Source: Sycon ciliatum (lineage: Eukaryota; Porifera; Calcarea; Leucosolenida; Sycettidae). From it: a stretch of 64,000 nt of DNA. The DNA is taken from contig NC_088646.1 of assembly GCF_964019385.1 (NCBI RefSeq), positions 14,833,905 to 14,897,904 on the forward strand, given 5' to 3'. The translations under genes were made by a program, and so were the position numbers. This document shows positions 4,171 through 25,800 of the stretch, one piece after another (position 1 is the stretch's first letter; every line of letters starts with the position of its first letter). Below the pieces are notes generated by a model. That model worked only from the letters and a program-made list of their open reading frames with translations. It searched no databases and had not been told where the DNA came from.

Positions 4171-5175
4171 GCGGATAGTAACTGATAGGCGCTCACAGGC
4201 GAGCAGAGGCAAGCAGAGGCGGGCAGAGGTGCGCAGAGGCGAGCAGAGTCGCTCAGAGGCGACCAGAGGCACGCAGAGCTCGCAGAGGTACGCAGAGGCA
4301 CTCAGAGGCGCGTAGAGGCGGGCACGCAGAGGCGCGCAGAGGCACGCACAGGCGCACACAGGCGTGCAGAGGCGCGCAGAGGCACGCAGACGCGCGCAGA
4401 GGCGTGCGCAAAGGCGAGCAGAGGCGCAGACGCGCGCAGACGCGCACGCAAAGGCGGGCAGAGGCGCAGAGGCGCGCGCAAAGGCGAGCAGAGGCGCGGA
4501 TAGGCGCTCAGAGGCGAACAGATGGGAGCAGAGAGGAGCAGAGGCGAGCAGAGGCGCGCAAAGGCAAGCAGAGGCGCTGAGAGGGAGTAGAGGCGCGCAG
4601 AGGCAAGCAGAGGCGCACAGAGGCGAGCAGAGGCGCGCAGAGGCACACAGAGGCACGCAGAGGCGCGCAGAGGCGCTCAGAGGCGCTCAGAGGCGCACAG
4701 AGGCGCGCGCAAAGGCGAGCAGAGGCGCAGAGGCGTGCGCAAAGGCGAGCAGAGGCGCGGATAGTAACTGATAGGCGCTCACAGGCGAGCAGAGGCAAGC
4801 AGAGGCGGGCAGAGGTGCGCAGAGGCGAGCAGAGTCGCTCAGAGGCGACCAGAGGCACGCAGAGGCGCGCAGAGGTACGCAGAGGCGCTCAGAGGCGCGT
4901 AGAGGCGGGCACGCAGAGGCGCGCAGAGGCACGCACAGGCGCACACAGGCGTGCAGAGGCGCGCAGAGGCACGCAGACGCGCGCAGAGGCGTGCGCAAAG
5001 GCGAGCAGAGGCGCAGACGCGCGCAGACGCGCACGCAAAGGCGGGCAGAGGCGCAGAGGCGCGCGCAAAGGCGAGCAGAGGCGCGGATAGGCGCTCAGAG
5101 GCGAACAGATGGGAGCAGAGAGGAGCAGAGGCGAGCAGAGGCGCGCAAAGGCGAGCAGAGGCGCGCAAAGGCAAG
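4171..5175. repeat. Tandem duplication of about 587 bp inside satellite C
   Basis: A distinctive string gcggatagtaactgatagg occurs at 4171 and again at 4757. The following roughly 400 bases, including gtcgctcagaggcgaccag and the gacgcgcgcagacgcgcacg cluster, match in order. The copies drift from an offset of 586 to 588 through a 2-bp indel (gagctcgc versus gaggcgcgc). This is a duplication of a block of variant 10-mers, above the level of the 10-bp unit. Confidence 0.85.
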
Positions 5176-7330
5176 CAGAGGCGCTGAGAGGCGCGCAGAA
5201 GCGCGCAGAGTCGGGTATAGGTGTGCAGAGGCGCGTAGAGGCACGCAGAGGGGCGCAGAGGGGAGCAGATGCGCGCAGAGGCGCACAGAGGCCAGTAGAG
5301 GCGAGCAGAGGCGAGCAAAGGCGCGTAGAGGCATCCAGAGGCGCGCACAGGCGCGCACAGGCGTGCAGAGGCGCGCAGAGGCGTGTGTAAAGGCGAGCAG
5401 AGACGCAGAGGCGCGCGCAAAGGCGAGCAGAGGCAGAGAGGCGCGCGCAAAGGCAAGCAGAGGTGCGCAGAGGTGCGCAGACGCGCGTAGTGGCGCGCAG
5501 AGGCGCGAAGAGGGGCGCAGAGGCGCGCAGAGGCGAGCAGAGGAGCACCTGAGGCACGCGCAGAGGCGCACAGAGGCGGACAGAGGCACGCACAGGCGAG
5601 CAAAGGAGCGCAGAGGCGCACAGAGGCGCGCAGAGGAGAGCAGAGGATCGCCTGAGCGCGCAAAGGCGTACGCAGAGGCGGGCAGAGGCGCACAGAGGCC
5701 AGCAGAGGCGAGCAGAGGCGTACAAAGGCTTGTAGAGGCGCACATAGGCATGCAGAGGCGCGCACAGGCGCGCAGAGGCGCGCACAGGCGTGCGCAAAGG
5801 CGAGCAGAGGCGCAGAGGCGCGCGCAAAGGTGAGCAGAGGCACAGAGGCGCGCGTAAAGGCAAGCAGAGGCGCGCAGTGGTGCGTAGAGGCGCGCAGAGG
5901 CGCGCAGAGGCGAGCAGAGGGGAGCAGAGGAGCACCTGATGCACGCGCAGAGGCGTGCAGAGGCAAGCAGAGGCAAGCAGAGGCGCACAGAGGCGAGCAG
6001 AGGCGCACAGAGGCGCACAGAGGCACGCAGAGGCGCACGCAAAGGCGAGCAGAGGCGCAGAGGCGCGCAAAGGCGAGCAGAGGCGCGGGCAGGCGCTCAG
6101 AGGCGAACAGAGGGGAGCAGAGGCTAGCAGAGGTGCGCAGAGGCGAGCATAGGCGCGCAGAGGCGCTGAGAGGCGCGCAGAGGCGCGCAGAGGCGCGCAG
6201 ATGCGGGTATAGGTGTGCAGAGGCGCGCAGAGGCGGGTAGAGGTGCGCAGAGGGGAGCAGAGGCGCGCAGAGGCGCCCAGAGGCCAGCAGAGGCGAGCAG
6301 AGGCGTGCAAAGGCGCGTAGAGGCACAGAGGCGTGCGTAAAGGCGAGCAGAGGCGCAGAGGCATGCGCAAAGGCGAACAGAGGCACAGAGGCGCGCGCAA
6401 AGGCAAGCAGAGGCGCGCAGAGGTGCGCAGAGGCGCGCAGAGGCGAGCAGAGGAGCACCTGAGGCACGCGCAGAGGCGCATAGAGGCGGACAGAGGCACG
6501 CACAGGCGAGCAAAGGAGCGCAGAGGCGCACAGAGGCGCACAGAGGAGAGCAGAGGAGCGCCTGACCGCGCAAAGGCGTACGCAGAGGCGGGCGGAGGCG
6601 CACATAGGCCAGCAGAGGCGAGCAGAGGCGTGCAAAGGCGTGTAGAGGCGCACATAGGCATGCAGAGGCGCGCACAGGCGCGCAGAGGCGCAAACAGGCG
6701 TGCGCAAAGGCGAGCAGAGGCGGAGAGGCGCGCGCAAAGGCGAGTGGAGGCACAGAGGCGCTCGCAAAGGCAAGCAGAGGCGCGCAGAGGTGCGCAGAGG
6801 CGCGTAGTGGTGCGTAGAGGCGCGCAGAGGCGCGCAGAGGCGCGCAGAGGGGCGCAGAGGCGACCAGAGGAGCACCTCAGGCACGCGCAGATGCGCTCAA
6901 AGGCGGACAGAGGCACGCAGAGGCACGCAGAGGCGAGCAGAGGAGCGCAAAGGCGCGCATAGGCGCGCAGAGGCGTGCGCAGAGGCGTGCGCAGAGGCGA
7001 GCAGAGGCGCAGAGTCGCGCGCAAAGGCGGGCAGAGACGCGCAGAGGCGTGCAGAGGCGCGCAGAGTGGAGTAGAGGCGTGCAGAGGCAAGCAGAGGCAT
7101 GCAAAGGCGCGGAGATGTGCGCAGAGGCGCACGCAGAGGCACGCAGAGGGGAAAAGAGGAGCGCAGAGGCGAGCAGAGGCCCGCCAAGGCGCGTAGAGGT
7201 GCGCAGAGGCGCACAGAGGCACGCCCTGCGCGCCTCTGCGCGCAGGGGCGCGCTTAAAGGCGAGCAGAGGCGCAGAGGCGTGCGCAAAGGCGAGCAGAGG
7301 CGCGGATAGGCGCTCAGAGGCGAGCAGAGG
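5100..7330. repeat. Left copy of a 5.1-kb-spaced segmental duplication in satellite C
   Basis: Landmark variants occur here and again about 5.1 kb downstream in the same order: gatgggagcag (5108 and 10245), gggtataggtgtgcag (5213 and 10320), the gagtggagtagaggcgtgc string (about 7060 and 12157) and a short palindrome (7224 and 12319). Offsets range from about 5,095 to 5,137 because of small indels. The partner copy is at about 10237-12430. Confidence 0.8.
7224..7247. repeat. Perfect 10-bp inverted repeat with a 4-nt centre, copy 1
   Basis: Arms ccctgcgcgc and gcgcgcaggg flank ctct. This is the clearest place in the array where the minisatellite unit appears in reverse orientation (gcctctgcgc). 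The same palindrome recurs at 12319-12342 as part of the 5.1-kb duplication. Confidence 0.9.
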
Positions 7331-8796
7331 CGAGCAGAGGTGGGCAGAGGTGCGCAGAGGCAAGCAGAGGCGTGCAGAGGCGTGCAGAGGCGCGCAGAGG
7401 GGAAAACAGGCGCGCAGAGGCGCACAGAGGCGAGCAGAGGCGCGCAGAGGCACACAGAGGCACGCAGAGGCGCGCAGAGGCGCGCAGAGGCGCTCAGAGG
7501 CGCTCAGAGGCGCGCAGAGGCGCGCGCAAAGGCAAGCAGAGGCGAAGAGGCATGCGCAAAGGCGAGCAGAGGCGCGGATAGGTGCTGATAGGCGCTCACA
7601 GGCGAGCAGAGGCAAGCAGAGGCGGGAAGGGGTGCGCAGAGGCGAGCAGAGTCGCACAGAGGCGACCAGAGGCACGCAGAGGCGCGCAGAGGTACGCAGA
7701 TGCGCTCAGAGGCGCGCAGAGGCGGGCACGCAAAGGCGCGCACAGGCACGCACAGGCGCACTCAGGCGTGCAGAGGCGCACGCAAAGGCGAGCAGAGGCG
7801 CAGAGGCGCGCGCAAAGGTGAGCAGAGGCGCGGATAGGCGCTCAGAGGCGAACAGATGGGAGCAGAGGGGAGCAGAGGCGAGCAGAGGCGCGCAAAGGCG
7901 AGCAGAGGCGCTGAGAGGCGCCCAGAGGCGCGCAGAGGCGCGCAGAGTCGGGTATAGGTGTGCAGGGGCGCGTAGAGGTACGCAGAGGGGCGCAGAGGGG
8001 AGCAGAGGCGCGGAGAGGCGCACAGAGGCCAGCAGAGGCGAGCAGAGGCGTGCAAAGGCGCGTAGAGGCATCCAGAGGCGCACAAAGGCGCGCACAGGCG
8101 TGCAGAGGGGAGCAGAGGCGCAGAGGCGCGCGCAAAGGCGAGCAGAGGCACAGAGGCGCGCGCAAAGGCAAGCAGAGGCGCGCAGAGGTGCGCAGAGGCG
8201 CGTAGTGACGCGCAGAGTCGCGCAGAGGCGCGCAGAGGCGCGCAGAGGCGAGCAGAGGAGCACCTGAGGCACGCGCAGAGGCGCACAGAGGCGGACAGAG
8301 GCACGCACAGGCGAGCAAAGGAGCGCAGAGGCGCACAGAGGCGCGCAGAGGAAAGCAGAGGATCGCCTGAGCGCGCAAAGGCGTACGCAGAGGCGGGCAG
8401 AGGCGCACAGAGGCCAGCAGAGGCGAGCAGAGGCGTGCAAAGGCGAGCAGAGGCAAGCAGATGCGCGCAAAGGCGCGTGGAGGCACGCAGAGGCGCGCAC
8501 AGGCGCGCACTGTTGCACACAGGGATGTGGAGGCGCGCAGAGACACGCAGAGGCGCATAGAGGCGTGCGCAAAGGCGAGAAGAGGCGCAGAGGCGCGCAG
8601 AGGCGCGCGCAAAGGCGAGCCGAGGCGCAGAGGCACGCGCAAAGGCGAGCATAGGCGCGGATAGGCGCTCAGAGGCAAACAGAAGGGAGCAGAGTCGAGC
8701 AGAGGTGCGCAGAGGCGAGCCGAGGCGCGCAAAGGCGCGCAGAGGCGCTGAGAGGCGCCCAGAGGCGCGCAGAGGGGCGCAGAGGCGCGCAGAGGC

Positions 8797-9440
8797 GGGT
8801 ATAGGTGTGCAGAGGCGCGCAGAGGCGCGTAGAGGCGCACAGAGGCATGCAGAGGCGCGCACAGGCGTGCAGAGGCGCGCAGAGGCGTGCGCAAAGGCGA
8901 GCAGAGGTGCAGAGGTGCAGAGGCGTGCGCAAAGGCGAGCAGAGGCGCAGAGGCGCGCGCATAGGTGAGCAGAGGCAAAGAGGCGCGCTCAAAGGCAAGC
9001 AGAGGCGCGCAGAGGTGCGCAGACGCGCGCAGAGGGGCGCAGAGGCGAGCAGAGGGGCGCAGAGGCACGCAGAGGCGCAGAGGCACGCGCAAAGGCGAGC
9101 AGAGGCGCGGATAGGCGCTCAGAGGCAAACAGAAGGGAGCAGAGTCGGGCAGAGGGGCGCAGAGGCGCGCAGAGGCGGGTATAGGTGTGCAGAGGCGCGC
9201 AGAGGCGCGTAGAGGCGCACAGAGGCATGCAGAGGCGCGCACAGGCGCGCATAGGCGTGCAGAGGCGCGCAGAGGCGTGCGCAAAGGCGAGCAGAGGTGC
9301 AGAGGTGCAGAGGCGTGCGCAAAGGCGAGCAGAGGCGCAGAGGCGCGCGCATAGGTGAGCAGAGGCAAAGAGGCGCGCTCAAAGGCAAGCAGAGGCGCGC
9401 AGAGGTGCGCAGAGGCGCGCAGAGGGGCGCAGAGGCGAGC
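8797..9440. repeat. Tandem duplication with 380-bp spacing in satellite C
   Basis: The string gggtataggtgtgcagagg starts at 8797 and 9177. It is followed in both copies by the same series of variants, including gaggtgcagaggtgcagagg and cataggtgagcagaggc. The second copy continues into a run of near-perfect 10-mers at about 9461-9530. Confidence 0.85.
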
Positions 9441-10236
9441 AGAGGGGCGAAGAGGCACGCAGAGGCGCGCAGAGGCGCGCAGAGGCGCGCAGAGGCGCGC
9501 AGAGGCGCGCAGAGGCGCGCAGAGGCGAGCAGAGGAGCGCCTGAGCGCGCAAAGGCGTACGCAGAGTCGGGCAGAGGCGCGCAGAGGCGTGCTGAGGCGC
9601 GCAGAGGGGAGTAGAGGCGTGCAAAGGCGCGCAGAGGTGCACAGAGGTGAGCAGAGGCCCGCAAAGGCGCGTAGAGGTGCGCAGAGCCGCACGCAGAGGT
9701 GCGCAGAGGCGGGCAGAGGCGCGCAGAGGCGTGCAGAGGCGCGCAGAGGGGAAAACAGGCGCGCAGAGGCAAGCAGAGGCGCACAGAGGCGAGCAGGGGG
9801 CGCAGAGGCACACAGAGGCACGCAGAGGCGCGCAGAGGCGCGCAGAGGCGCGCGCAAAGGCGAGCAGAGGCGCAGAGGCGTGCGCAAAGGCGAGCAGAGG
9901 CGCGGATAGGTGCTGATAGGCGCTCACAGGTGAGCAGAGGCAAGCAGAGGCGGGCAGAGGTGCGCAGACGCGAGCAGAGTCGCTCAGAGGCGACCAGAGG
10001 CACGCAGAGGCGCGCAGAGGTACGCAGATGCGCTCAGAGGCGCGCAGAGGCGGGCACGCAGAGGCGCGCACAGGCACGCACAGGCGCAGACAGGCGTGCA
10101 GAGGCGCGCAGAGGCACACAGACGCGCGCAGAGGCGTGCGCAAAGGCGAGCAGAGGCGCAGAGGCGCGCAGACGCGCACGCAAAAGCGAGCAAAGGCGCG
10201 CGCAAAGGCGAACAGAGGCGCGGATAGGCGCTCAGA

Positions 10237-12430
10237 GGCGAAAAGATGGGAGCAGAGGCAAGCAGAGGCAAGCAGAGGCGCGCAAAGGCGAGCAGAGGCG
10301 CTGAGAGGCGCGCAGAGTCGGGTATAGGTGTGCAGAGGCGCGTAGAGGCACGCAGAGGGGCGCAGAGGGGAGCAGAGGCGCGCAGAGGCGCACAGAGGCC
10401 AGCAGAGGCGAGCAGAGGCGTGCAAAGACGCGTAGAGGCATCCAGAGGCGCGCACAGGCGCGCACAGGCGTGCAGAGGCGCGCAGAGGCGCGCGCAAAGG
10501 CGAGCAGAGGCACAGAGGCGCGCGAAAAGGCAAGCAGAGGCGCGCAGAGGTGCGCAGAGGCGCGTAGTGGCGCGCAGAGGCGCAGAGGCGCGCAGAGGCG
10601 AGCAGAGGAGCACCTGAGGCACGCGCAGAGGCGCACAGAGGCGGACAGAGGCACGCACAGGCGAGCAAAGGAGCGCAGAGGCGCACAGAGGCGCGCAGAG
10701 GAGAGCAGAGGATCGCCTGAGCGCGCAAAGGCGTACGCAGAGGCGGGCAGAGGCGCACAGAGGCCAGCAGAGGCGAGCACAGGCGTGCAAAGGCGTGTAG
10801 AGGCGCACATAGGCATGCAGAGGCGCGCACAGGCGCGCAGAGGCGCGCAAAGGCGTGGGCAAAGGCGAGCAGAGGCGCAGAGGCGCGCGCAAAGGCGAGC
10901 AGAGGCACAGAGGCTCGCGCAAAGGCAAGCAGAGGCGCGCAGAGGTGCGCAGAGGCGCGTAGTGGTGCGTAGAGGCGCGCAGAGGCGCGCAGAGGGGCGC
11001 AGAGGCGCGCAGAGGCGAGCAGAGGCGAGCAGAGGACCACCTGAGGCACGCGCAGAGGCGGACAGCGGCGCACAGAGGCGTGCAGAGGCAAGCAGAGGCG
11101 CACAGAGGCGAACAGAGGCGTGCAAAGGCGCACAGAGGCGCACAGAGGCGCGCAGAGGCGCACGCAAAGGCGAGCAGAGGCGCAGAGGCGCCCAAAGGCG
11201 AGCAGAGGCGCGGATAGGCGCTCAGAAGCGAACAGAGGGGAGCAGAGGCTAGCAGAGGTGCGCAGAGGCAAGCATAGGCGCGCAAAGGCGCGCAGAGGCG
11301 CTGAGAGGCGCCCAGAGGCGCAGAGGGGCGCAGAGGCGCGCAGAGGCGGGTATAGGTGTGCAGAGGCGCGCATAGGCGCGTAGAGACGCGCAGAGGGGCG
11401 CAGAGGGGAGCAGAGTCGCCCAGAGGCCAGCAGAGGCGAGCAGAGGCGTGCAAAGGCGCGTAGAGGCATCCAGAGGCGCGCACAGAGGCGTGCGTAAAGG
11501 CGAGCAGAGGCGCAGAGGCATGCGCAAAGGCGAGCAGAGGCACAGAGGCGCGCGCAAAGGCAAGCAGAGGCGCGCAGAGGTGCGCAGAGGCGCGCAGAGG
11601 CGCGCATAGGAGCACCTGAGACACGCGCAGAGGCGCATAGAGGCGGAAAGAGGCACGCACAGGCGAGCAAAGGAGTGCAAAGGCGCACAGAGGCGCGCAG
11701 AGGCGCGCAGAGGAGAGCAGAGGAGCGCCTGAGCGCGCAAAGGCGTACGCAGAGGCGAGCGGAGGCGCACAGAGGCCAGCAGAGGCGAGCAGAGGCGTGC
11801 AAAGGAGTGTAGAGGCGCACATAGGCATGCACAGGCGCGCACAGGCGCGCAGAGGCGCAAACAGGCGCGCGCAAAGGCGAGCAGAGGCACAGAGGCGCTC
11901 GCAAAGGCAAGCAGAGGCGTGCAGAGGTGCGCAGAGGCGCGTAGTAATGCGTAAAGGCGCGCAGAGGGGCGCAGAGGCGAGCAGAGGAGCACCTCAGGCA
12001 CGCGCAGATGCGCTCAGAGGCGGACAGAGGCACGCAGAGGCACGCAGAGGCGAGCAGAGGAGCGCAAAGGCGCGCAGAGGCGCGCATAGGCGCGCAGAGG
12101 CGTGCGCAAAGGCGCAGAGGCGCGCGCAAAGGCGGGCAGAGGCGTGCAGAGGCGCGCAGAGTGGAGTAGAGGCGTGCAGAGGCAAGCAGAGGCATGCAAA
12201 GGCGCGGAGATTTGCGCAGAGGCGCACGCAGAGGCACGCAGAGGGGAAAAGAGGCGAGCAGAGGCGAGCAGAGGCCCGCAAATGCGCGTAGAGGCGCGCA
12301 AAGGCGCACAGAGGCACGCCCTGCGCGCCTCTGCGCGCAGGGGCGCGCCTAAAGGCGAGCAGAGGCGCAGAGGCGTGCGCAAAGGCGAGCAGAGGCGCGG
12401 ATAGGCGCTCAGAGGCGAGCAGAGGCGAGT
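10237..12430. repeat. Right copy of the 5.1-kb-spaced duplication in satellite C
   Basis: This is the partner of about 5100-7330, matched through the shared ordered landmarks given in that entry. The two copies differ by scattered substitutions and indels of whole 10-bp units, for example fewer units around 11310-11340 and 12100-12120. Confidence 0.8.
12319..12342. repeat. Perfect 10-bp inverted repeat with a 4-nt centre, copy 2
   Basis: The arms and centre are identical to those at 7224-7247. Flanking sequence matches except for cgcgccta here versus cgcgctta there. Confidence 0.9.
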
Positions 12431-14798
12431 AGAGGTGGGCAGAGGTGCGCAGAGGCAAGCAGAGGCGCTCAGAGGTGCGCAGAGGCGGGCATAGGCGGGC
12501 ATAGGCGTGCAGAGGCGCGTTGAGGCACGCAGAGGGGAGCAGAGGCGCGAAGAGGCGCACAGAGGCGAGCAGAGGCAAGCAGAGGCGCGCAAAGGCACTT
12601 GGAGGCACGCAGAGGCGCGCACAGGCGCGCACAGTTGCACACAGGCGTGCAGAGGCGCGCAGAGGCACGCAGAGGCGCGCAGAGGAGAGTAGAGGCGTGC
12701 AGAGGCGCGCAGAGGCGCACAGAGGCAAGCAGAGGCCCGCAAAGGCGCGTAGAGGTGCGCAGAGGCGGGCAGAGGCGTGCAGAGGCGTGCAGAGGCGCGC
12801 AGAGGCGCGCAGAGGGAAAAAGAGGCGCGCAGAGGCGAGCAGAGGCGCGCAGAGGCACACAGAGGCACGCAGAGGCGCGCAGAGGTGATCAGAGGCGCGC
12901 AGAGGCGCGCGCAAAGGCGAGCAGAGGCGCAGAGGCGAGCAGAGACGCGGAGAGGTGCTGATAGGCGCTCAGAGGCGCTCACAGGCGAGCAAAGGCAAGC
13001 AGAGGCGGGCAGAGGTGCGCAGAGGCGAGCAGAGGCGCTCAGAGGCGACCAGAGGCACGCAGAGGCGCGTAGAGGTACACAGAGGCGCTCAGAGGCGCGC
13101 AGAGGCGGGCACGCAGAGGCGCGCACAGGCGCACACAGGCGTGCAGAGGCGCGCAGAGGCACACAGACGCGCGCAGAGGCGTGCGCATAGGCGAGCAGAG
13201 GCGCAGAGGCGCGCAGAGGCGCACGCAAAGGTGAGCAGATGCGCTGAGGCGCGCGCAAAGGCGAGCAGAGGCGCGGATCGGCGCTCAGAGGCGAACATAG
13301 GGGAGCAGATGCGAGCAGAGGTGCGCAGAGGCGAGCAGAGGCGCTCAGAGGCGCCCAGAGGCACGCAGAGGCGCGCAGAGGCGTGCGGAAAGGCGAGCAG
13401 AGGCGCAGAGGCGTGCGCAAAGGCGAGCAGAGGCGCGGCTAGGCGCTCAGAGGCGAGCAGAGGCTGGCAGAGGCGCCCAGAGGCACGCAGAGGCGCACAG
13501 CGGCACGCAGAGGCGCGCAGAGGCGCTCAGAGGCGCGCAGAGGCGGGCATAGGCGTGCAGAGGCGCGTAGCGGCGCGCAGAGGCGCGCAGAGGGGAACAG
13601 AGGCGCGCAGAGGCGCACAGAGGCGAGCAGAGGCGCGCAAAGGCGCGTAGAGGCGCACACAGGCGTGCAGAGGCACACAGAGGCACGCAGAGGCGCGCAG
13701 AGGCGTGCGCAAAGGCGAGCAGAGGCGCGCGCAAAGGCGAGCAGACGCACAAAGGCAAGCAGAGGCGGGGAAAAGCGCTCAGAGACGCGCAGAGGTGCGC
13801 AGAGGCGCGCAGTGGTGCGTAGAGGCGCGCAGAGGGGCGCAGAGGCGAGCAGAGGCGAGCAGAGGAGCACCTGAGGCACGCGCAGAGGCGGACAGAGGTA
13901 CGCAGAGGCACGCAGAGGCGAGCAGAGGAGCGCAAAGGCGCACAGAGGCGCGCAGCGGCGCGCAGAGGCGAGCAGAGGAGCGCCTGAGCGCGCAAAGGCG
14001 TACGCAGAGGCGGGCAGAGGCGTGCAGAGGCTCGCAGAGGGGAGTAGAGACGTGCAGAGGCAAGCAGAGGCGCACAGAGGCGAGCAGAGGCCCGCAAAGG
14101 CGCGTAGAGGTGCGCAGAGGCGCGCGTAGAGGCGCACGCAGAGGCGGGCAGAGGAGCGCAGAGGAGCGCAGAGGGGAAAAGAGGCGCGCACAGGCAAGCA
14201 AAGGCGCACAGAGGCGAGCAGAGGCCCGCAAAGGCGCGTAGAGGCGCGCAGAGGCGCACAGAGGCACGCAGAGGCGCACAGAGGCACGCAGAGGCGCGCA
14301 GAGGCGCGCAGAGGCGCGCAGAGGCGCGCAGAGGCGCGCAGAGGCGCGCAGAGGCGCGCAGAGGCGTGCGCAAAGGCGAGCAGAGGCACAGAGGCGTGTG
14401 CAAAGGCGAGGATAGGCGCTCATAGGCGAGCAGAGGCGAGCAGAGGCGGGCATAGCTGCGCAGAGGCGAGCAGAGGCGCTCAGAGGCGCCCAGAGACACG
14501 CAAGAGGCGCGCAGAGGCGCGCAGAGGCGCGCAGAGGCGCGCAGAGGCGGGCATAGGCGTGCAGAGGGAAGCAGAGGCGGGCAGAGGCGCGCAGAGGCGC
14601 ACAGAGGCGAGCAGAGGCGAGCAGATGTGAGCAGAGGCGCGCAAAGGCGCGTAGAGGCGCACAGAGGCACGCAGAGGCGCGCACAGGCGCGCACAGGCAA
14701 GCAGAGGCGGGGAAAAGCGCGCAGAGGTGCGCAGAGGCGCGAGCAGAGGCACGCAGGGGCGCGAAGGGCCACGCAAATGCGCGCAGAGGAGGGCAAAG

Positions 14799-15883: not shown

Positions 15884-17139
15884 GCGTTATGTCCGGACCG
15901 CACTAGGCCGATTTTAGGCCGACATGGACTCGTACGAAAAATTCTCGTTACCGGGCGAACATACTAATTGCCTCATGTGGACGGTGTTGTCGTACACGTT
16001 TCCGACAAATCTGCGGCGAGTTTCTTGCCGCATTCGCACCTGGTCGATATTTTGCCGATTTGTAGTGCTGTGCGGCAGGTTACCGCCCCCTGTCCTCGTT
16101 TACATGCAGAGCACAGTGAATTTCAGCGACAATCCAGTTCGTGGCGTGCAGCCGATGGTTTTTCGTCAAAGTCCAGGAAACTTCAAACTTCAAACTCCCT
16201 ATGGTGTAAACGAGGAAAGGGGACGGCAAACTGCTGCACGGCATATTTCATTGCCGTTTCTCTGTGGGATGGGTAGAAAGAATAATTAGACAGCCTCTGA
16301 TAAATCCTATTAAGACCGTGGCACGCCTTAGACAGGTGAAAATTTGTCTAAGAATTTTCGAAGGGTCGATAGATGATGCGGTGTGCAGGTGCGGTGCTAC
16401 CTATGAGGGGGAGTAAAAAATCCTTAAACTGGAGCAGGGCAAATCCGCGTGGGGCGCTATCTGTGAATTTCCTTGAAAATCATGAAGAGCACAGCGAATC
16501 CTTGTGGGGACAATCTGTGGCCCGATATTCCTGAAAAGGAATATACAGAGCACAGCGAATCCGTGTGGGGCGCAATCTGTGGATCTGTGAATTTAACTGA
16601 AACACATGAAGAGCACAGTAAATCCGTATGGGTGGCCATCTGTGGATTTCGTAGAAAATCATGAAGAGCACTGCGAATCCGTGTTGGATCAATCTGTGGC
16701 CCGATTTTCCTGACAAAGAGCATGCAGAGCACAGCGAATTCGTGTGGGACGCTATGTGTGAATTTCCCTAAAAAATCATGAAGAGGACAGCGATTCCTTG
16801 TGGGGGCAATCTGTAGCCCGATTTGTCTGAAAGGGAACATACAGAGCACAGCGAATCCGTGTGGGGCACAATCTGTGAATTCTCCTGAATAACATCAAGA
16901 GCACAGCGAATCGGTGTCGGGCGCTATATCCGTGAATTTTGCTGCTCTGAAAAAGAACATGCAGAGCACAGCGAATCCGTGTGGGGCGCAATATCTGTGA
17001 ACTTTGTTGAAAATCAAGAATAGCACAGCGAATCCGAGTGGGGGCAATCTGTGGCCCGAGTTCCTGAAAAGGAATAAACGGAGCACAGCTAAACCGTGGT
17101 GGGTGCTATCTGTGAATTTAACTGAAAACATGAAGAGCA

Positions 17140-17291
17140 CCCTCTAGGATCAAAGGCGCAGATGCAGCGCCTAAACGGTGGGAGGTGAGTAGATCAGACC
17201 CACCACCCTTTGATCCTAGAGGGTGGTGGCGTTCCCACGGCGGATGCGGAAAACTCGGCTTCCAGCCGAGTCTCACGCGAACCGTGAAATT
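17140..17291. mobile_element. Short dispersed repeat, rearranged copy
   Basis: A 152-bp insert in satellite A related to part of the insert at 55241-55496. It carries 17-bp inverted arms at 17140-17156 (starting ccctctaggatc) and 17207-17223 (ending gatcctagaggg). The roughly 50 bp between them is in opposite orientation relative to the tail, compared with the other copy. The tail contains a hairpin, actcggct-tcc-agccgagt (17253-17271), then tctcacgcgaaccgtgaaattt. At 55.3 kb the same hairpin position reads gggcctttggcc, so pairing is kept although bases changed. The family is not recognised. A structured-RNA-derived short retroelement is one possibility. Confidence 0.6.
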
Positions 17292-18963
17292 TAATTTTAA
17301 TGAAGAGCACAGCAAATCCGTGTGGGGCGCTATCTGTGGATTTCGGTGAAAATCGTGAAGAGTACAGCGAATCCGTGTGGGTAATCTGCGACATTATTTT
17401 CTTGAAAAGGAACATTATACAGCACAGAGAATACGTGCGGGGCGCTATCTGTGAATTTCCTTGACAAATCTAGGAGAGCACAGCGAAATCGTGTGGGGCA
17501 ATCTGTGGCCCGATTTCTCTGAAAAAGAACATGCAGAGCACAGCGAATCTGTGTGGGGCGCTATATCTGTGAACTTCGTTGAAAATCAATAAGAGCACAG
17601 CGAATCCGTGTGGCGGCAAACTGTGGCCCGATATTCCTGAAAAGGAATACACAGAGCACAGCGAAGAGCACATTAAATCCGTGTGATGCGCTATCTGTGA
17701 ATTTTCCTGAAAATCATGAAGAGCACAGCGAATCCGTGTGGGGCAATCTGTGACATTTTGTTCCTGAAAAAGAACATACACAGCACAGCGAATACGTGTG
17801 GGGCGCTATTTGTGAATTTCCTTGAAAATCATAGAGAGCACAGTGAATTCGTGTGGGGGCAATCTATGGCCCGATTTTTCTGAAAAAGAACGAGCAGAGC
17901 ACAGCGAATCCGTGCGGGGCGTTATCTGTGAATTTGGCTGAAAATCATGTCGAGTCAAGCAAATCCGTGTGGGGGCAATCTGTGAATTTAACTAAATCAC
18001 ATGCAGAGCACAGCGAATCCGTGTGGGGCGCTAGATAAGAATTTCCTTGAAAACCATGAGAGCGCAGCGAATCCATGTGGGGGCGAACTGTGGCTACGTT
18101 TCGCTGAAAAATGACATGCAGAGAACAGCGAATCCGTGTGGGGCACTATCTGTTAATTTCCCCGAAAACCATAAAGAGCACAGCGAATCCGTGTGGTGCA
18201 CAATCTGTGGCCCGATTTCCCGGAAAAAGAACATACACCGCACAGCGGATAGGTGTGAGGCGTTATCTGTGAATTTCCTTGAAACTCATGGAGAGCAATG
18301 GAGAGCTAAGCTAATCCGTGTGGGCCGCAATCTGTGGATTTCGTTGTAAATCATGAAGAGCACAGGGAATCCTTGTGGGGGGAATCTGTGGCCCGATTTT
18401 CCTGAACAAGAACAAACAGAGCACAGCGAATCCGTGTGGGGCGCTACCTGTGAATTTCCTTGAAAATCATAGAGAGCACAGCAAATTCGTGTGGGGTCAT
18501 TCTGTGGCCCGATTTCCCAGAAAAAGAACATGCAGAGCACAGTGAATCCGTGTGGGGCTCCATCTGGGATTATCCCAGAGAAATATGAAGAGCACATCAA
18601 ATCCGTGTGGGGGCATCTGTGGACCGATTTTCCTGAAAGGGAACATTAAAAGCACGGAAAACCCGTGTTGGGCGCTATCTGTGAATTTCCTTGATATTCA
18701 AGGAGAGCACGGCAAATCCGTGTGGGGCGCAATCTGTGTATTTCGTTGGAAATCATGAAGGTCACAGCGAATCCGTGTGGGGGAACTCTGTGGCCCGATT
18801 TTCTTCAAAAAGAACAGACATAGCACAGCGGATCCGTGTGGGGCGCTATATGTGAATTTCCTTGAAAATCAGGGACCGCACGGAAAATCCCTGTGGGGTC
18901 AATCTGTGGCCTGATTTTCCTCATAAAGAACATACAGAGCACAGCGAATCCGTGTGAGGCGCC

Positions 18964-18988
18964 ATCTATATATAAATAATAATAATCT
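18964..18988. repeat. AT-rich microsatellite inside satellite A
   Basis: The run ctatatataaataataataat interrupts a monomer between gcgccat and ctgtgaa. It is a short simple repeat of (ta)n then (aat)n type. Confidence 0.8.
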
Positions 18989-19625
18989 GTGAATATTCCT
19001 GAAAAACATGAAGACCACATCAAATCCGTGTGGGGCGCAATAAGTGAGTTTCGTTGAAAGTCATGAAGAACACAGCGAATCCGTGTGGGGCGCGATAAGT
19101 GAGTTTCGTTGAAAGTCATGAAGAGCACAGCGAATCCGTGTGGGGGCATCTGTGGGCCGATTTTCCTGAAAAGAAACATACAAAGCACAGAGAATCCGTG
19201 TGGGGCACAATCTATGGATTTCGTTGGAAATCATGAAGAGGACAGCGAATCCGTGTGGGGCGCAATCTGTGGATTAAGTTGTAAATCATGAAGAGAAGCA
19301 CAGCGAATACGTGTGGGGAAAAAGAACAGACAGAGCGCAGCGAATCCGTGTGGGGCGCTATCTGTGAATTTCCTTGAAAATGATGGAGAGCACAACAAAT
19401 CAGTGTGGGGCCAATCTGAGGCCTGTTCATCCTCATAAAGAACATACAGACAGAGCACAGCGAATCCGTGTGGGGCGCTATCTGTGAATTTCCCTTAAAC
19501 ACATGAAGACCACATCCAATCCGTGCGGGGCGCAATATGTGAGTTTCGTTGAAAATCATGAAGAGCACAGCGAATCCGTGTGGGGTGCAATCTGCGCATT
19601 TCGTTGAAAATTATGAAGAGCACAG

Positions 19626-19793
19626 CCGTGGCTGACAGTTCAATCCTATTTTAAGCTATGAGTTCCACTGATGACGCCTCATTGGCCGAAACATTCTGGC
19701 TGTCTGCATCATGGAGTATTTCGCTCCTCGATTTCGATCTTGTAGAGCACTCTCAATCACTATTAATCAGTCTGGCTGTCTGCATCATTAAAC
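19626..19793 (+). mobile_element. Hammerhead-bearing insert in satellite A, copy 1
   Basis: Foreign sequence of about 168 bp starting ccgtggctgacag and ending before aacaggaataaacagagc, where satellite A resumes. It contains a hammerhead-like core (19664-19708) and, 76 bp downstream, a second copy of the 3' half of that motif (cagtctggctgtctgc at 19768-19783). That is the remnant of a tandem arrangement. The same insert, with the same satellite borders, recurs at 25583-25756. Hammerhead motifs are known in Penelope-like retroelements, retrozymes and some animal satellites, but there is no coding sequence here to assign a class. Confidence 0.75.
19664..19708 (+). ncRNA. Hammerhead ribozyme-like motif (type I), copy 1, degraded
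   Basis: The layout matches a minimal type I hammerhead. Stem I 5' strand is tcca (19664-19667). The catalytic core CTGATGA is intact (19668-19674). Stem II is cgcc/ggcc with loop tcatt (19675-19687). GAA follows at 19688-19690. Stem III is acat/ctgt with loop tctgg (19691-19703). The predicted cleavage base is C at 19704, followed by stem I 3' strand tgca (19705-19708). Each of the three stems has one mismatch: tcca against tgca, C opposite C at the base of stem II, and T opposite C at the top of stem III. The strict core bases are all present. Activity is doubtful. Confidence 0.7.
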
Positions 19794-20162
19794 AGGAATA
19801 AACAGAGCACAGCGAATCTGTGTTGGGCGCTATCTGTGAATTTCCTTGATCATTACCGAGAGCACAGCAAATCCGTGTGGGGCGCAATCTGTGGATTTCG
19901 TTGGAAATCATGAAGAGCACAGCGAATCCGCGTGAGGGGACTCTGTGGCCCGATTTTCTTGAAATGGAACATACAAAGCACAGAGAATCTGTGTGGGGCG
20001 CTATCTGTGGATTTCCCTGAAAAACATGAAGAGGACAGTGAATTCGTGTGGGGCGCAATCTATGGATTTCGTTGGAAATCATGAAGAGCGCAGCGAATCT
20101 GTGTGGGGAAAATAACAGACAGAGCACAGCGAATCCGATTGGGTCGCGATCTGTGAATTTCC
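19794..20162. repeat. Satellite A monomers between two inserts
   Basis: About six monomers with the usual gagcacagcaaatccgtgtg core and both flavours. The right edge, gaatttcc, abuts the TTAA target site of the foldback element. Confidence 0.93.
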
Positions 20163-21031
20163 TTAAAGGGGAAGTATACCCTAAAATCAAATTTTCACCA
20201 GTTGTAGTCTTCGGGGTGCTGAGTCGAATGGTCTTGGTCCGAGGAAGCTGCGACGCTCCCTTCCTACTTGAATCCCAATCGAACTCGCGCACTTCCACCG
20301 AAACTGGGTGACTGCGCCCTACTAGATGGGGATTTGTATGCAAAATGTCACTAAAAGCGCCATTTCGTTCTTATAAGAGCACGGATGACCGCGATTGGCC
20401 CATATGTTGTAGTCTTTTGGACGCTGAGTCGACTGGTTTTGGTCCGAAAAGGCTGCGATGCAGCGTTCCTCCTTTATTCCCAATCGAACATGGTTGAAGA
20501 AGCAGTCACGTGCTCCTGGGTGCCCAAATCACCTGGTCACCGCGCCAGCAGGCGACAACTTTCACACCAAGGTTCAACTCGAGTTCAACTCGAGTGACAG
20601 GACTGCACCCAAAAAAGGTCAAACAGGCTAGTAAGTTGTACCCTGCAGGCACGGTGACCAGGTGACTGGTGTACGCAGGAGCACGTGACCGCTTGTTCAA
20701 CCATGTTCGATTGGGAATAAAGGAGGAACGCTGCATCGCAGCCTTTTCGGACCAAAACCAGTCGACTCAGCGTCCAAAAGACTACAACATATGGGCCAAT
20801 CGCGGTCATCCGTGCTTTTATAAGAACGAAATGGCGCTTTTAGTGACATTTTGCATACAAATCCCCATCTAGTAGGGCGCAGTCACCCAGTTTCGGTGGA
20901 AGTGCGCGAGTTCGATTGGGATTCAAGTAGGAAGGGAGCGTCTCAGCTTCCTCGGACCAAGACCATTCGACTCAGCACCCCGAAGACTACAACTGGTGAA
21001 AGTTTGATTTTAGGGTATACTTCCCCTTTAA
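20163..21031. mobile_element. Foldback (long inverted repeat) DNA transposon with TTAA target duplication
   Basis: The element spans 20167-21027 and is flanked on both sides by TTAA (20163-20166 and 21028-21031). Its ends are perfect inverted repeats beginning aggggaagtataccctaaaa. The arms continue inward for about 340 bp with only a handful of mismatches, then about 60 bp more with weaker similarity, so almost the whole element folds back on itself around about 20590. A short palindromic string (caactcgagtt, caactcgagtg) sits at the centre. Each arm also contains two diverged direct sub-repeats about 205 bp apart (gttgtagtct at 20201 and 20406, each ending cccaatcgaac). TTAA duplication is typical of the piggyBac superfamily, so this is probably a non-autonomous derivative. 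There is no transposase frame; identical short peptides read from both arms are by-products. Confidence 0.85.
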
Positions 21032-24000
21032 TAATCATGGAGAGCACAGCAAATCCGTTTGGGGCACAATCTGTGGATTTCGTTGGAAATCTGAAGAGCA
21101 CAGCGAATCCGTGTGGGGGACTCTGTGGCCCGATTTTCTTGAAAAAGAACAGAGAACAGAGCACAGCAAATCCGTGTGGGCGCAATCTGTGGCCCGATTT
21201 TCTTGAAAAAGAACAGAGCACAGCGAATGCGTGTGGGGCGCTATCTGTAAATTTCCTTGATAATCATGGAGAGCACAGCAAATCCGTGTGGGGTGCAATC
21301 TGTGGATTTCGTTTGAAATCATGAAGAGCACAGCAAATCCGTGTGAGGCCCACTCTGTGGCCCGATTTTCTTTGAAAAGAACAGACAGAGCACAGAGCAC
21401 TGCAAATCCGTGTGGGGTCAATCTGTGGCCCGATTATCTTGAAAAAGAACAGAGCACAGGGAATCCGCGTGGGGCGCTATCTGTGAATTTGCTTTATAAT
21501 CTTGGAGAGCACAGCGAATCCGTGGGGAACGCAATCTGCGCATTTCGTTGGAAATCATGAAGAGCACAGCGAATCCGCGTGGGGGGACTCTGTCGCCCGA
21601 TTTTCTTGAAATGGAACATACAAAGCACAGAGAATCTGTGTGGGGCGCTATCTGTGAATTTCCCTGAAAAACATGAAGAGGACAGTGAATTCGTGTGGGG
21701 CGCAATCTATGGATTTCGTTGGAAATCATGAAGAGCGCAGCGAATCTGTGTGGGGAAAAGAACAGACAGAGCACAGCGAATCCGTGTGGGGCGTGATCTG
21801 TGAATTTCCTTGATAATCATGGAGAGCACAGCAAATCCGTGTGGGGCGCAATCTGTGGATTTCGTTGGACATCTGAAGAGCACGGCAAATCCGTGTGGGG
21901 GACTCTGTGGCCCGATTTTCTTGAAAAAGAACAGAGCACAGAGCACAGCAAATCCGTGTGGGGCGCAATCTGTGGCCCGATTTTCTTGAAAAAGAACAGA
22001 GCCCAGCGAATGCGTATGGGGCGCTATCTGTGAATTTCCTTGATAATCATGGAGAGCACAGCAAATCCGTGTGGGGTGCAATCTGTGGATTTCGTTTGAA
22101 ATCATGAAGAGCACAGCGAATCCGTGTGAGGCCAACTCTGTGGCCCGATTTTCTATGAAAAGAACAGACAGAGCACAGAGCACAGCAAATCCGTGTGGGG
22201 TCAATCTGTGGCCCGATTATCTTGAAAAAGAACAGAGCAAAGGGAATCCGCGTGGGGCGCTATCTGGGAATTTACTTTATAATCATGGAGAGCACAGCGA
22301 ATCCGTGTGGGGCGCAATCTGCGCATTTCGTTGGAAATCATGAAGAGCACAGCGAATCCGCGTGGGGGACTCTGTGGCCCGATTTTCTTGAAATGGAACA
22401 TACAAAGCACAGAGAATCTGTGTGGGGTGCTATCTGTGAATTTCCCTGAAAAACATGAAGAGGACAGTGAATTCGTGTGGGGCGCAATCTATGGATTTCG
22501 TTGGAAATCATGAAGAGCGCAGCGAATCTGTGCCGGGAAAAGAACAGACAGAGCACGGGAAATCCGTATGGGGCGCGATCTGTGAATTTCCTTGATAATC
22601 ATGGAGAGCACAGCAAATCCGTGTGGGGCGCAATCTGTGGATTTCGTTGGAAATCTGAAGAGCACGGCGAATCCGTGTGGGGGACTCTGTGGCCCGATTT
22701 TCTTGAAAAAGAACAGAGCACAGAAGAGCACAGCAAATCTGTGTGGGGCGGAATCTGTGGCCCGATTTTCTTGAAAAAGAACAGAGCACAGCGAATGCGT
22801 GTGGGGCGCTATCTGTGAATTTCCTTGATAATCATGGAGAGCACAGCAAATCCGTGTGGGGTGCAATCTGTGGATTTCGTTTGAAATCATGAAGAGCACG
22901 ACGAATCCGTGTGAGGCCCACTCTGTGGCCCGATATTCTTTGAAAAGAACAGACAGAACACAGAGCACAGCAAATCCGTGTGCGGTCAATCTGTGGCCCG
23001 ATTATCCTGAAAAAGAACAGAGCACAGGGAATCCGCGTGGGGCGCTATCTGGGAATTTGCTTTATAATCATGGAGAGCACAGCGAATCCGTGTGGGGCGC
23101 AATCTGCGCATTTCGTTGGAAATCATGAAGAGCACAGCCAATCCGCGTGGGGGACTACTCTGTGGCCCGATTTTCTTGAAATGGAACATACAAAGCACAG
23201 AGAATCTGTGTGGAGCGCTATCTGTGAATTTCCCTGAAAAACATGAAGAGGACAGTGAATTCGTGTGGGGCGCAATCTATGGATTTCGTAGGAAATCATG
23301 AAGAGCGCAGAGAATCTGTGTGGGGAAAAGAACAGACAGAGCACAGCAAATCCGTGTGGGGCGCGATCTGTGAATTTCCTTAATAATCATGGAGAGCACA
23401 GCAAATCCGTGTGGGGCGCAATCTGTGGATTTCGTTGGACATATGAAAAGCACGGCGAATCCGTGTGGGGGACTCTGTGGCCCGATTTTCTTGAAAAAGA
23501 ACAGAGCACAGAGCACAGCAAATCCGTGTGGGGCGCAATCTGTGGCCTGATTTTCTTGAAAAAGAACAGAGCACAGCGAATGCGTGTGAGGCGCTATCTG
23601 TAAATTTCCTTGGTAATCATGGAGAGCACAGCAAATCCGTGTGGGGTGCAATCTGTGGATTTCGTTTGAAATCATGAAGAGCACAGCGAATCCGTGTGAG
23701 GCCCACTCTGTGGCCCGATTTTCTTTGAAAAGAACAGACAGAGCACAGAGCACAGCAAATCCGTGTGGGGTCAATCTGTGGCCCGATTATCTTGAAAAAG
23801 AACAGAGCAAAGGGAATTCGCGTGGGGCGCTATCTCGGAATTTAATCATGGAGAGCACAGCGAATCCGTGTGGGGCGCAATCTGCGCATTTCGTTGGAAA
23901 TCATGAAGAGCGCAGCGAATCCGCGTGGGGGACTCTGTGGCCCGATTTTCTTGAAATGGAACATACAAAGCACGGAGAATCTATGTGGGGCGTTATCTGT

Positions 24001-25582
24001 GAATTTCCCTGAAAAACATGAAGAGGACAGTGAATTCGTGTGGGGCGCAATCTATGGATTTCGTTGGAAAACATGAAGAGCGCAGCGAATCTGTGTGGGG
24101 AAAAGAACAGACAGAGCACAGCGAATCCGTATGGGGCGCGATCTGTGAATTTCCTTGATAATCATGGAGAGCACAGCAAATCCGTGTGGGGCGCAATCTG
24201 TGGATTTCTTTGGAAATCTGAAGAGCACGGCGAACCCGTGTGGGGGACTCTCTGGCCCGATTTTCTTGAAAAAGAACAGAGCACAGAGCACAGTAAATCC
24301 GTGTGGGGCGCAATCTGTGGCCCGATTTTCTTGAAAAAGAATAGAGCACAGCGAATGCGTGTGGGGCGCTATCTGAAAATTTCCTTGATAATCATGTAGA
24401 GCACAGCAAATCCGTGTGGGGTGCAATCTGTGGATTTCGTTTGAAATCATGAAGAGCAAAGCGAATCTCTGTGGCCCGATTTGCTTGGAAAAGAACAGAC
24501 AGAGCACAGAGCACAGCAAATCCGTGTGGGGCGCAATCTGTGGATTTCGTTGGAAATCTGAAGAGCACGGCGAATCCGTGTGGGGACTCTGTGGCCCGAT
24601 TTTCTTGAAAAAGAACAGAGCACAGAGCACAGCAAATCCGTGTGGGGCGCAATCTGTGGCCCGATTTTCTTGAAAAAGAACAGAGCACAGAGCACAGCAA
24701 ATCCGTGTGGGGCGCAATCTGTGGCCCGATTTTCTTGAAAAAGAACAGAGCACAGCGAATGCGTGTGGGGCGCTATCTGTGAATTTCCTTGATAATCATG
24801 AAGAGCACAGCAAATCCGTGCGAGGCCCACTCTGTGGCCCGATTTTCTTTGAAAAGAACAGACAGAGCACAGAGCACAGCAAATCCGTGTGGGGTCAATC
24901 TGTGGCCCGATTATCTTGATAAAGAACAGAGCACAGGGAATCAGCGTGGGGCGCTATCTGTGAATTTGCTTTATAATCTTGGAGAGCACAGCGAATCCGT
25001 GTGGAACGCAATCTGCGCATTTCGTTGGAAATCATGAAGAGCACAGCGAATCCGCGTGGGGGGACTCTGTGGCCCGATTTTCTTGAAATGGAACATACAG
25101 AGCACAGAGAATCTGTGTGGGGCGCTATCTGTGAATTTCCCTGAAAAACATGAAGAGGACAGTGAATTCGTGTGGGGCGCAATCTATGGATTTCGTTGGA
25201 AATCATGAAGAGCGCAGCGAATCTGTGTGGGGAAAAGAACAGACAGAGTACAGCGAATCCGTGTGGGGCGCGATCTGTGAATTTCCTTGATAATCATGGA
25301 TATCACAGCAAATCCGTGTGGGGCGCAATCGGTGGATTTCGTTGGAAATCTCAAGAGCACGGCGAATCCGTGTGGGAGACTCTGTGGCCCGATTTTCTTG
25401 AAAAGAACAGAGCACAGCGAATGCGTGTGGGGCGATATCTGTGAATTTCCTTGATAATCATAGAGAGCACAGCAAATCCGTGTGGCGTGCAATCTGTATA
25501 TTTCGTTTGAAATCATGAAGAGCACAGCGAATCCGTGTGCGGCGCAATCTGTGGATTTCGTTGGAAATCATGAAGAGCACAG
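21032..25582. repeat. Satellite A, block 3, with a higher-order repeat of about 780 bp
   Basis: Monomers are highly similar between groups and arranged in a larger repeat. The marker gtggggaaaagaacagacag recurs near 21750, 22535, 23320, 24096 and 25228. The first four intervals are about 775-787 bp, and the last one is longer because of extra monomers near 24480-24760. Within a group the order of W and P monomers is conserved. A doubled gagcacagagcacagc string marks some P monomers. Confidence 0.93.
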
Positions 25583-25756
25583 CCGTGGCTGACAGGTCAA
25601 TCCTATTTTGAGCTATGAGTTGCACTGATCCTCGAGGCCTCATTGGCCGAAACAGTCTGGCTGTCTGCATCATTGAGTATTTCGCTCCTCGATTTCGATC
25701 TTGTAGAGCACTCTCAATAGAACTCTCAATCAGTCTGGCTGTCTGCTTCATTGAAC
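25583..25756 (+). mobile_element. Hammerhead-bearing insert in satellite A, copy 2
   Basis: Second copy of the insert at 19626-19793, about 5.96 kb away, with matching satellite A sequence on both borders. It contains a hammerhead-like motif (25621-25669) and the extra 3' half motif 78 bp downstream (cagtctggctgtctgc at 25731-25746). The shared borders imply one insertion later copied with its satellite flanks rather than two independent insertions. Confidence 0.75.
25621..25669 (+). ncRNA. Hammerhead ribozyme-like motif (type I), copy 2, core interrupted
   Basis: All three stems pair perfectly: stem I tgca (25621-25624) with tgca (25666-25669), stem II ggcc (25636-25639) with ggcc (25645-25648) around tcatt, and stem III acag (25652-25655) with ctgt (25661-25664) around tctgg. 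GAA (25649-25651) and the cleavage base C (25665) are in place. The core reads CTGAT, then four extra bases cctc (25630-25633), then GA, so the CTGATGA box is split and the copy should be inactive. Its stems are intact where copy 1 has mismatches, and copy 1 has the intact box. Together they support descent from a functional hammerhead. Confidence 0.72.
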
Positions 25757-25800
25757 AGGAATAAACAAAGCACAGAGAATCCGTGTGGTCAAATATGGTC
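25757..25800. other. Junction of satellite A to satellite B
   Basis: The last partial satellite A monomer (aaagcacagagaatccgtgtgg) passes directly into satellite B (tcaaatatggtcaaaattt). The bases gtggtcaa fit both families (satellite A gtgtggggtcaatc, satellite B aggtggtcaaat), so the join lies within a short microhomology. Confidence 0.85.

Follow-up and report, generated by a model that had tools for sequence, protein, structure and literature searches.

Metazoan retrozymes that are not of the long terminal repeat type (non-LTR retrozymes) have been described as RNAs of about 170–400 nt (Cervera and de la Pena 2020, PMC7229834), and a later review from the same group (PMC7761336) states, in the part of its text available, that their repeats hold no conserved motif that would reveal a helper. 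Penelope-like elements are suggested as candidate helpers in the available text of both papers, and how animal retrozymes re-enter the genome is an open question. Here we describe two hammerhead-bearing inserts in a stretch of 64,000 nucleotides of the sponge Sycon ciliatum (contig NC_088646.1, positions 14,833,905 to 14,897,904 of the forward strand; hereafter the window), both of which are carried by a satellite array. We consider it highly probable that these inserts represent degenerate copies of a retrozyme of the metazoan class that is non-coding and not autonomous, with units of about 240 bp, and that would have been inserted by a cycle of RNA circles and target-primed reverse transcription. 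The retrozyme class is already known; what we add is the footprint left by insertion and the capture of a copy by a satellite, and a search of the open-access literature turned up no earlier account of a fixed insertion end in metazoan retrozymes.

The two inserts are about 165–175 bp long, lie on the + strand at window positions 19625..19789 (copy 1) and 25581..25754 (copy 2), and have a mutual identity of about 91%. By direct reading, the type I hammerhead motif of copy 1 (19664..19708, +) has the order TCCA / CTGATGA / CGCC-TCATT-GGCC / GAA / ACAT-TCTGG-CTGT / C / TGCA, and it is worn, with an intact CTGATGA box at 19668-19674 and one mismatch in each stem. The motif of copy 2 (25621..25669, +) reads TGCA / CTGAT+CCTC+GA / GGCC-TCATT-GGCC / GAA / ACAG-TCTGG-CTGT / C / TGCA; all three of its 4-bp stems are perfect, and its box is broken by four extra bases at 25630-25633. 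The original prediction, made from the window alone, had described two motifs in the full type I order with these same defects, and direct reading bears it out. The 3′ half of the motif was seen again 76 bp downstream in copy 1 (19765..19788, +) and 78 bp downstream in copy 2 (25728..25754, +), at positions that the unit alignments assign to the next tandem unit.

The window by itself leaves the beyond-chance status of the hammerhead not provable. A search of the window with Rfam gave no hammerhead match, either at the gathering threshold or at an expect value (E) of 10 or less. A loose descriptor (loops of 3–14, three or more of the four pairs in each stem) is expected to find 6.5 sites per Mb per strand in first-order random sequence matched to the local composition, or about 0.8 in the 64-kb window over both strands, and one site was observed, namely copy 1. 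A stricter descriptor found one site in the window where 0.01 was expected.

The host genome (538 Mb, 313 contigs) was the material on which the question was decided, and a search of it with the insert, in which the best 40 of 178 first-look candidates were scored, gave at least 61 matches. Twenty-two of these were full-length or nearly so, two in the window and 20 on contigs C1, C4, C7 and C12, and the remaining 39 were partial matches that are dispersed across chromosomes and often lie about 240 bp apart. The dispersed copies, which we call family A, consist of tandem units of about 240 bp (18 fetched loci, L026-L043, with 0.7–2.8 units per best alignment) and have a perfect type I hammerhead, TTGCA-CTGATGA-GGCC-TCATT-GGCC-GAA-ACAG-TCTGG-CTGT-C^TGCA. 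From neighbouring stretches and a genome search with the Rfam model RF00163 (best 74 of 76,236 candidates scored) we found a second family, B, with 226-bp units and the hammerhead CTGCG-CTGAYGA-GTCC-ACAAA-GGAC-GAA-ACAG-TT-CTGT-C^CGCAG, as well as a variant B2 with a GTTC/GAAC stem II; the units of B and B2 measure 226–228 bp, and several further families are also present. Examples of intact units are L026:815-1054 for family A and L049:1131-1356 for family B. The RF00163 search gave at least 21 loci at E<=1e-3 and at least four above the gathering score, the latter being family-B copies. Exact cores numbered 89 for family A and 1528 for family B genome-wide, family-B abundance being this pattern count, and the reversed control patterns gave 0. 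Thirteen of 16 sampled family-B insertions were 98–100% identical to one reference unit.

Both families have the type I core CUGANGA ... GAA ... UH with three helices and an open stem I, although stem I looks irregular past 4–5 bp. In the loci fetched from the host genome, 136.8 kb in all, the strict descriptor found 90 sites, compared to 0.025 expected from first-order Markov copies; these loci were chosen because they matched, so that the count is a density and not an unbiased rate, and they include L018, which is a window copy, as well as L024 and L025, which sit within L045. As a control we used 17 loci with a hammerhead-like pattern from viral collections, in which the strict descriptor found 0 sites in 125 kb, and an exact 20-mer of the insert had 0 matches in the viral collections.

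A covariance model, R1, was built from 18 copies outside the window and none from within it. R1 matched copy 1 at 19659-19717 (57.8 bits, E 7.7e-14) and copy 2 at 25616-25678 (71.6 bits, E 1.1e-17). The half-motifs scored 16.3 and 15.0 bits (E 0.03 and 0.08), close to the best viral control match (14.2 bits in 125 kb), and they are therefore supported by sequence identity and not by the model. The covariance-model check that had been proposed for the window thus failed with the Rfam model and succeeded with the family model. RF00163 describes the same fold as that of families A and B, yet it is blind to the window copies and to the perfect family-A hammerheads: on 20 own-genome loci at E<=1 it reported some family-B sites and no family-A hammerhead. 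A refutation based on Rfam would have been misleading here.

Covariation was evaluated in two sets. The first comprised 28 distinct hammerheads (from 71 rows), picked by core and tail irrespective of stem I and II pairing, with the stem III letters among the selection criteria. Here 209 of the 224 cells of stems I and II were paired, whereas 2000 permutations averaged 184.6 and never exceeded 194. In the 18 aligned copies, which were taken from a list of 51 distinct sequences that required pairing, 98.1% of cells were paired versus 91.9% after shuffling (0 of 500 shuffles reached the observed value), and both sides had changed at three pairs, which 17 of 500 shuffles also reached. The compensated pairs are A-U/G-C in stem I and G-C/U-A and C-G/U-A in stem II, so that compensatory variation, the lack of which the original prediction had named as a ground for refutation, was found in stems I and II.

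Taken together, the genome-wide copies with compensated stems, the covariation and the family model led us to reject a chance origin. An unrelated satellite insert that happens to fit the hammerhead layout would account for the absence of an Rfam match in the window at E<=10 and for the roughly 0.8 sites that the loose descriptor expects there; given E values of 1e-17 and 8e-14 with the family-specific model, stems that covary across families, and 89 exact cores genome-wide against 0 for the control pattern, we consider it extremely improbable. To judge from the sequences, the ribozyme reading of the inserts is correct, and it is the host genome, not the window, that decides this. The intact copies for which the original prediction had proposed a search do occur throughout the genome, with 89 exact cores compared to 0 for the reversed control.

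In their small non-coding tandem units with one type I hammerhead per unit, the co-existing Penelope-like elements and target duplications of more than 4 bp, families A and B resemble the metazoan non-LTR retrozymes as these are described in the available text of PMC7229834. The short tandem repeats of 150–450 bp that define retrozymes, each with a type I hammerhead, are found here at 240 bp (A) and 226–228 bp (B and B2), and target duplications of more than 4 bp are found in part of the insertions (4/12, 8/19 and 9/16, as detailed below). In a six-unit concatemer the longest stop-free stretch is 77 amino acids for A and 83 for B, that is, the units are without protein-coding capacity. On reading the A and B units no LTR was seen, although no search for LTRs, primer binding sites or polypurine tracts was made. 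The G+C content of one unit is 49.2% in A and 49.6% in B, and these values of 49–50% are borderline, at the top of the range given in PMC7229834 (<50% in the text, <45% in its Figure 1C). The present elements differ from those in that paper, as far as its available text goes, in that the insertions mostly have a fixed 3′ end, ATTGAG|(TAT), in that there are at least two families, and in that one of these also sits within a satellite unrelated to it. By its sequence features, the element matches most of those of metazoan non-LTR retrozymes that were compared.

The footprint of insertion was read in both families. Twelve of the 18 dispersed family-A loci end at ...CATCATTGAG(TAT), at phases 90–101 of 240, and in a wider family-A search (best 40 of 637 candidates scored) 20 of the 23 terminal part-units listed outside a cluster on contig C10 stop at 90–98. 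The family-B end is ATTGAG(TAT), at phases 193–199 of 226, in 16 of 19 alignable loci (of 21 in total). In a follow-up, prompted by this result, of 16 further loci among the 1528 family-B sites, which we chose ourselves, all from the C1 plus strand and about half of them picked for multiple units, 16 of 16 insertions stop at phases 193–199, with lengths of 0.30–4.57 units and varied 5′ ends; across the A and B insertions as a whole, lengths range over 0.2–4.6 units and the 5′ ends differ. Among the 12 family-A insertions that stop at the common 3′ end, target duplications of at least 10 nt flank four (1/132 in mismatched pairs); those of at least 9 nt flank eight of 19 family-B insertions (0/342), and those of at least 13 nt flank nine of 16 insertions in the follow-up (3/240). 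Many of these duplications have TA or TAT as their first bases, an overlap with the TAT of the element itself. The fixed 3′ end, the variable 5′ end and the target duplications agree with the earlier assignment to the retroelements, and they suggest target-primed reverse transcription with a circular or multimeric RNA as the template.

The 3′ end lies 11–15 nt downstream of the predicted cleavage point, as read from the A and B sequences. Therefore, the template was not simply a cut linear monomer, and would have been either religated or never cut. We lean toward reverse transcription starting at a fixed internal site, ATTGAG|UAU, of a circular RNA, with the nicked target paired to UAU and the enzyme circling repeatedly. 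In a unit-by-unit comparison of eight multi-unit insertions, L088 was found to carry, in each of the four units long enough to include the position, a variant that none of the other seven insertions has, and L092 has a private variant in two of two units; L087 and L094 lack an informative substitution. The presence of the L088 and L092 variants in every eligible unit is as predicted by the copying of one circle. The alternative that A and B are retrozymes whose tandem units come from uncut linear multimers of tandem loci, with no circle involved, is possible, if doubtful. The cleavage site is crossed in a linear multimer too, which would likewise yield tandem insertions, and in the available text of PMC11167929 a Penelope-like element inserts in vitro without a need for ribozyme cleavage. 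Such a multimer fits the private variants of L088 and L092 only if the source array is uniform.

Several observations weigh against the interpretation as retrozymes copied from a circle. A homogeneous linear multimer would equally yield tandem units and common variants. The last unit of L091 has a different hammerhead variant, so that two variants occur in one insertion, and four changes in L093 are confined to one unit; both patterns are in keeping with a linear multimer and, because a single circle does not predict them, they would have to be put down to a second insertion, template switching or mutation after insertion. Six of the 18 family-A loci and three of the 19 family-B loci stop elsewhere than at the common 3′ end. 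The 5′ ends are not spread uniformly, as four of 16 insertions begin no more than about 15 nt away from a length of one full unit. Of the nine long duplications in the follow-up, three are in simple repeats, and seven of the 16 insertions have no duplication of 13 nt or more. The pairs L029/L030, L056/L057 and L062/L063 are duplicates by their flanks, and so the counts are not all independent. As for the hammerhead, stem III is invariant in the 18-copy alignment, and the further pair types there are no more numerous than expected after shuffling, since 288 of 500 shuffles have as many.

The life cycle that we propose would run as follows, its cleavage, circle and transcript steps resting on inference from sequence. 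Tandem copies would be transcribed, and the hammerhead, the structure of which is seen in the sequence, would cut each unit at CTGT-C^TGCA. By analogy with published retrozymes, a host ligase may join the ends into a circle. The reverse transcriptase of another element would nick the target DNA at a TA or TAT site, and the freed 3′ end (...ATA) would pair with the UAU just 3′ of ATTGAG and prime complementary DNA synthesis, a putative priming step that would leave the footprint observed. Synthesis would thus start 11–15 nt past the cleavage and ligation point, and copying would cross back over the ligation point and go on around the circle, for up to 4.6 units, until drop-off. Insertions made in this way are expected to have a fixed 3′ end, 5′ ends that vary, units in tandem and a duplicated target. 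Immediately 3′ of the start site, a hairpin (GCTC...GAGC) folds in most, though not all, of 22 sequences, which is suggestive only. At L042:1085-1201 and L087:925-975, two oppositely oriented retrozymes meet with their tails at a (TA)n target and form a palindrome, and the L042 palindrome has a below-cut-off Rfam score as the microRNA mir-5856.

The satellite that holds both inserts is an array of units based on about 55 bp (16432..25784, +, by Tandem Repeats Finder). It is a carrier and not part of the element, and the left and right junctions with the satellite unit are identical in both window copies. Because of these common junctions, the two copies probably represent a single insertion that was multiplied with the array rather than two insertions, and they do not provide the independent evidence for which the original prediction had taken them. 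Five copies of the satellite insert were aligned to a dispersed insertion: they start at unit phase 0–7, lack internal parts and stop at the canonical 3′ end. Copy 1 in the window aligns from phase 0 to this end with internal gaps, as about 1.4 units minus internal deletions; copy 2 was delimited by direct reading, junction comparison and unit alignment. Since the insert aligns in this way, the second half-motif is, on this alignment, the terminal unit of an ordinary insertion of about 1.4 units, and its earlier interpretation as a tandem trace is upheld by the tandem units of about 240 bp. One insertion into the 55-bp satellite would have been followed by internal deletion and by multiplication with the satellite, giving the 22 or more copies now spread over four contigs.

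Nine distinct copies of the 20 outside the window were read and found to be in the same satellite type, which for the remainder was deduced from alignment. A comparison of positions placed all 20 outside copies, among them those at C1:35.6-35.8 Mb and C7:11.57 Mb, in the set of 89 exact cores and neither of the two window copies. In these 20 copies GCA of stem I is kept, as are the box, stem II and GAAACA, which would be expected if the satellite had adopted the hammerhead to process its own transcripts as a function of the array. We consider such adoption unlikely: both window copies are broken, the fourth stem III pair has been lost in eight of the nine distinct outside copies read, and recent copying of one array version explains the uniform core equally well. 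Capture of a retrozyme insertion by a foreign satellite of about 55 bp also sets this locus apart from the hammerhead repeats of newt, schistosome and cave cricket, which likewise place a type I hammerhead in repeated DNA and in which, in the available text of PMC7229834 and PMC6155905, it is the repeat unit itself that bears the hammerhead. On contig C10 (C10:29305866-29439271), 13 listed family-A copies with a part-unit of 90–95 bases lie at kilobase spacings, one of them keeping the exact core; this cluster is apparently a second, independent capture and multiplication of a retrozyme by a tandem array.

Penelope-like elements were also found in the genome, by GIY-YIG matches with long open reading frames (ORFs), a weak reverse transcriptase match in one, and their layout. 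After the ORF they carry a hammerhead-like motif of their own, GAAACGTT, which has no stem III hairpin. Their 3′ end is fixed about 86–120 nt past the motif and has another tail, and among the matches listed (best 40 of 948 candidates) 41 of 43 stop at positions 189–204 of the 251-base query. These elements raise the possibility that the insert is a fragment of the terminal repeat of an autonomous Penelope-like element and not a separate retrozyme, the more so as minimal type I hammerheads are reported in such elements in the available text of PMC11167929. We judge this very unlikely. Apart from the different motif, end and tail, model R1 gave no match on the Penelope-like loci L081 and L085, families A and B consist of 226–240-bp tandem units with no open frame above 83 amino acids in the concatemer, and no family-A unit continuous with a reverse transcriptase or GIY-YIG ORF was seen in the fetched loci.

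The elements of PMC11167929, as far as its available text describes them, are like A and B in having a hammerhead near the insertion end, tandem copies, an internal start of reverse transcription and AT-rich targets. They differ in that they encode reverse transcriptase and GIY-YIG, whereas A and B have no ORF and the GIY-YIG ORFs of this genome are in separate elements, and in that their minimal hammerhead lacks the helix III that A and B have as a 4-bp hairpin. Furthermore, the published Penelope-like enzyme starts at a site that is not homologous to the target, whereas TA or TAT overlaps are common here. The fixed ends of the Penelope-like elements in the sponge differ from those of the retrozymes in distance and tail and hence are no proof of a helper role; the Penelope-like elements stay candidate helpers, though their ends do not match. 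The autonomous partner for which the original prediction had recommended a search was not identified.

Further Penelope-like features of the genome are recorded here. Insertions at L085:2236-2247 and L082-L084 stop at two places 35–40 nt apart, CTTCGAGT and ...ACTTCGTTTA, and these two end points resemble the optional 'tail' of such elements in the available text of PMC11167929. At C10:28066619-28067656, three Penelope-like terminal regions occur at a spacing of 421 bp, too close for an intervening ORF, and are perhaps a tandem non-autonomous derivative. L074, on the small contig C291, has an ORF for a GIY-YIG protein. The end of this ORF resembles bacterial UvrC, and we take the contig to be, presumably, bacterial contamination of the assembly.

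Other hammerhead-like sequences were noted in the fetched loci. A separate group at L026:600-654, L032:1282-1336, L041:672-725, L047:932-986, L063 and L064 has GAAACTnnnAGT[A/T], where the base at the cleavage position is U or A, and its stem I is varied yet paired. Minimal hammerheads with GAAACGTACGTC occur at L067:3400-3440 and L068:1110-1160. The one in L067 sits in a repeat of about 350 bp downstream of a long interspersed nuclear element with endonuclease and reverse transcriptase domains, and this element was considered in the search for a helper but could not be linked to the hammerhead.

Elsewhere in the window, a 12-kb array at 2751-14789 has a unit of about 10 bp, AGGCGCGCAG, with about 72% matches, in which long reading frames are opened in several directions. 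The satellite array between the two inserts is interrupted by a foldback element at 20165-21030 that has near-palindromic ends (AAGGGGAAGTATACCCTAAAATC...) and TTAA-like flanks, and it resembles, by these sequence features, a non-autonomous DNA transposon that targets TTAA. A 366-bp satellite, interrupted by short ATACC runs, starts about 30 bp after the second insert and occupies most of the remainder (25785-63714). A Pfam search gave no match for the two ORFs of the window that lie over the inserts or their edges, which, along with concatemer stop-free stretches of at most 83 amino acids, accords with the earlier statement that the element has no coding sequence.

The window shows a satellite array that captured and multiplied a ribozyme, in a case that the standard Rfam model missed. 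For the question of how animal retrozymes re-enter the genome, the footprint offers a testable start site, primer and template. If the interpretation is true, the footprint would be a tangible trace, in an animal, of RNA circles that are made by a ribozyme and reverse transcribed by a rolling-circle mechanism, and it would provide a handle for finding the helper enzyme. With its 1528 family-B cores and near-identical insertions, the genome of S. ciliatum therefore looks suited to testing rolling-circle reverse transcription.

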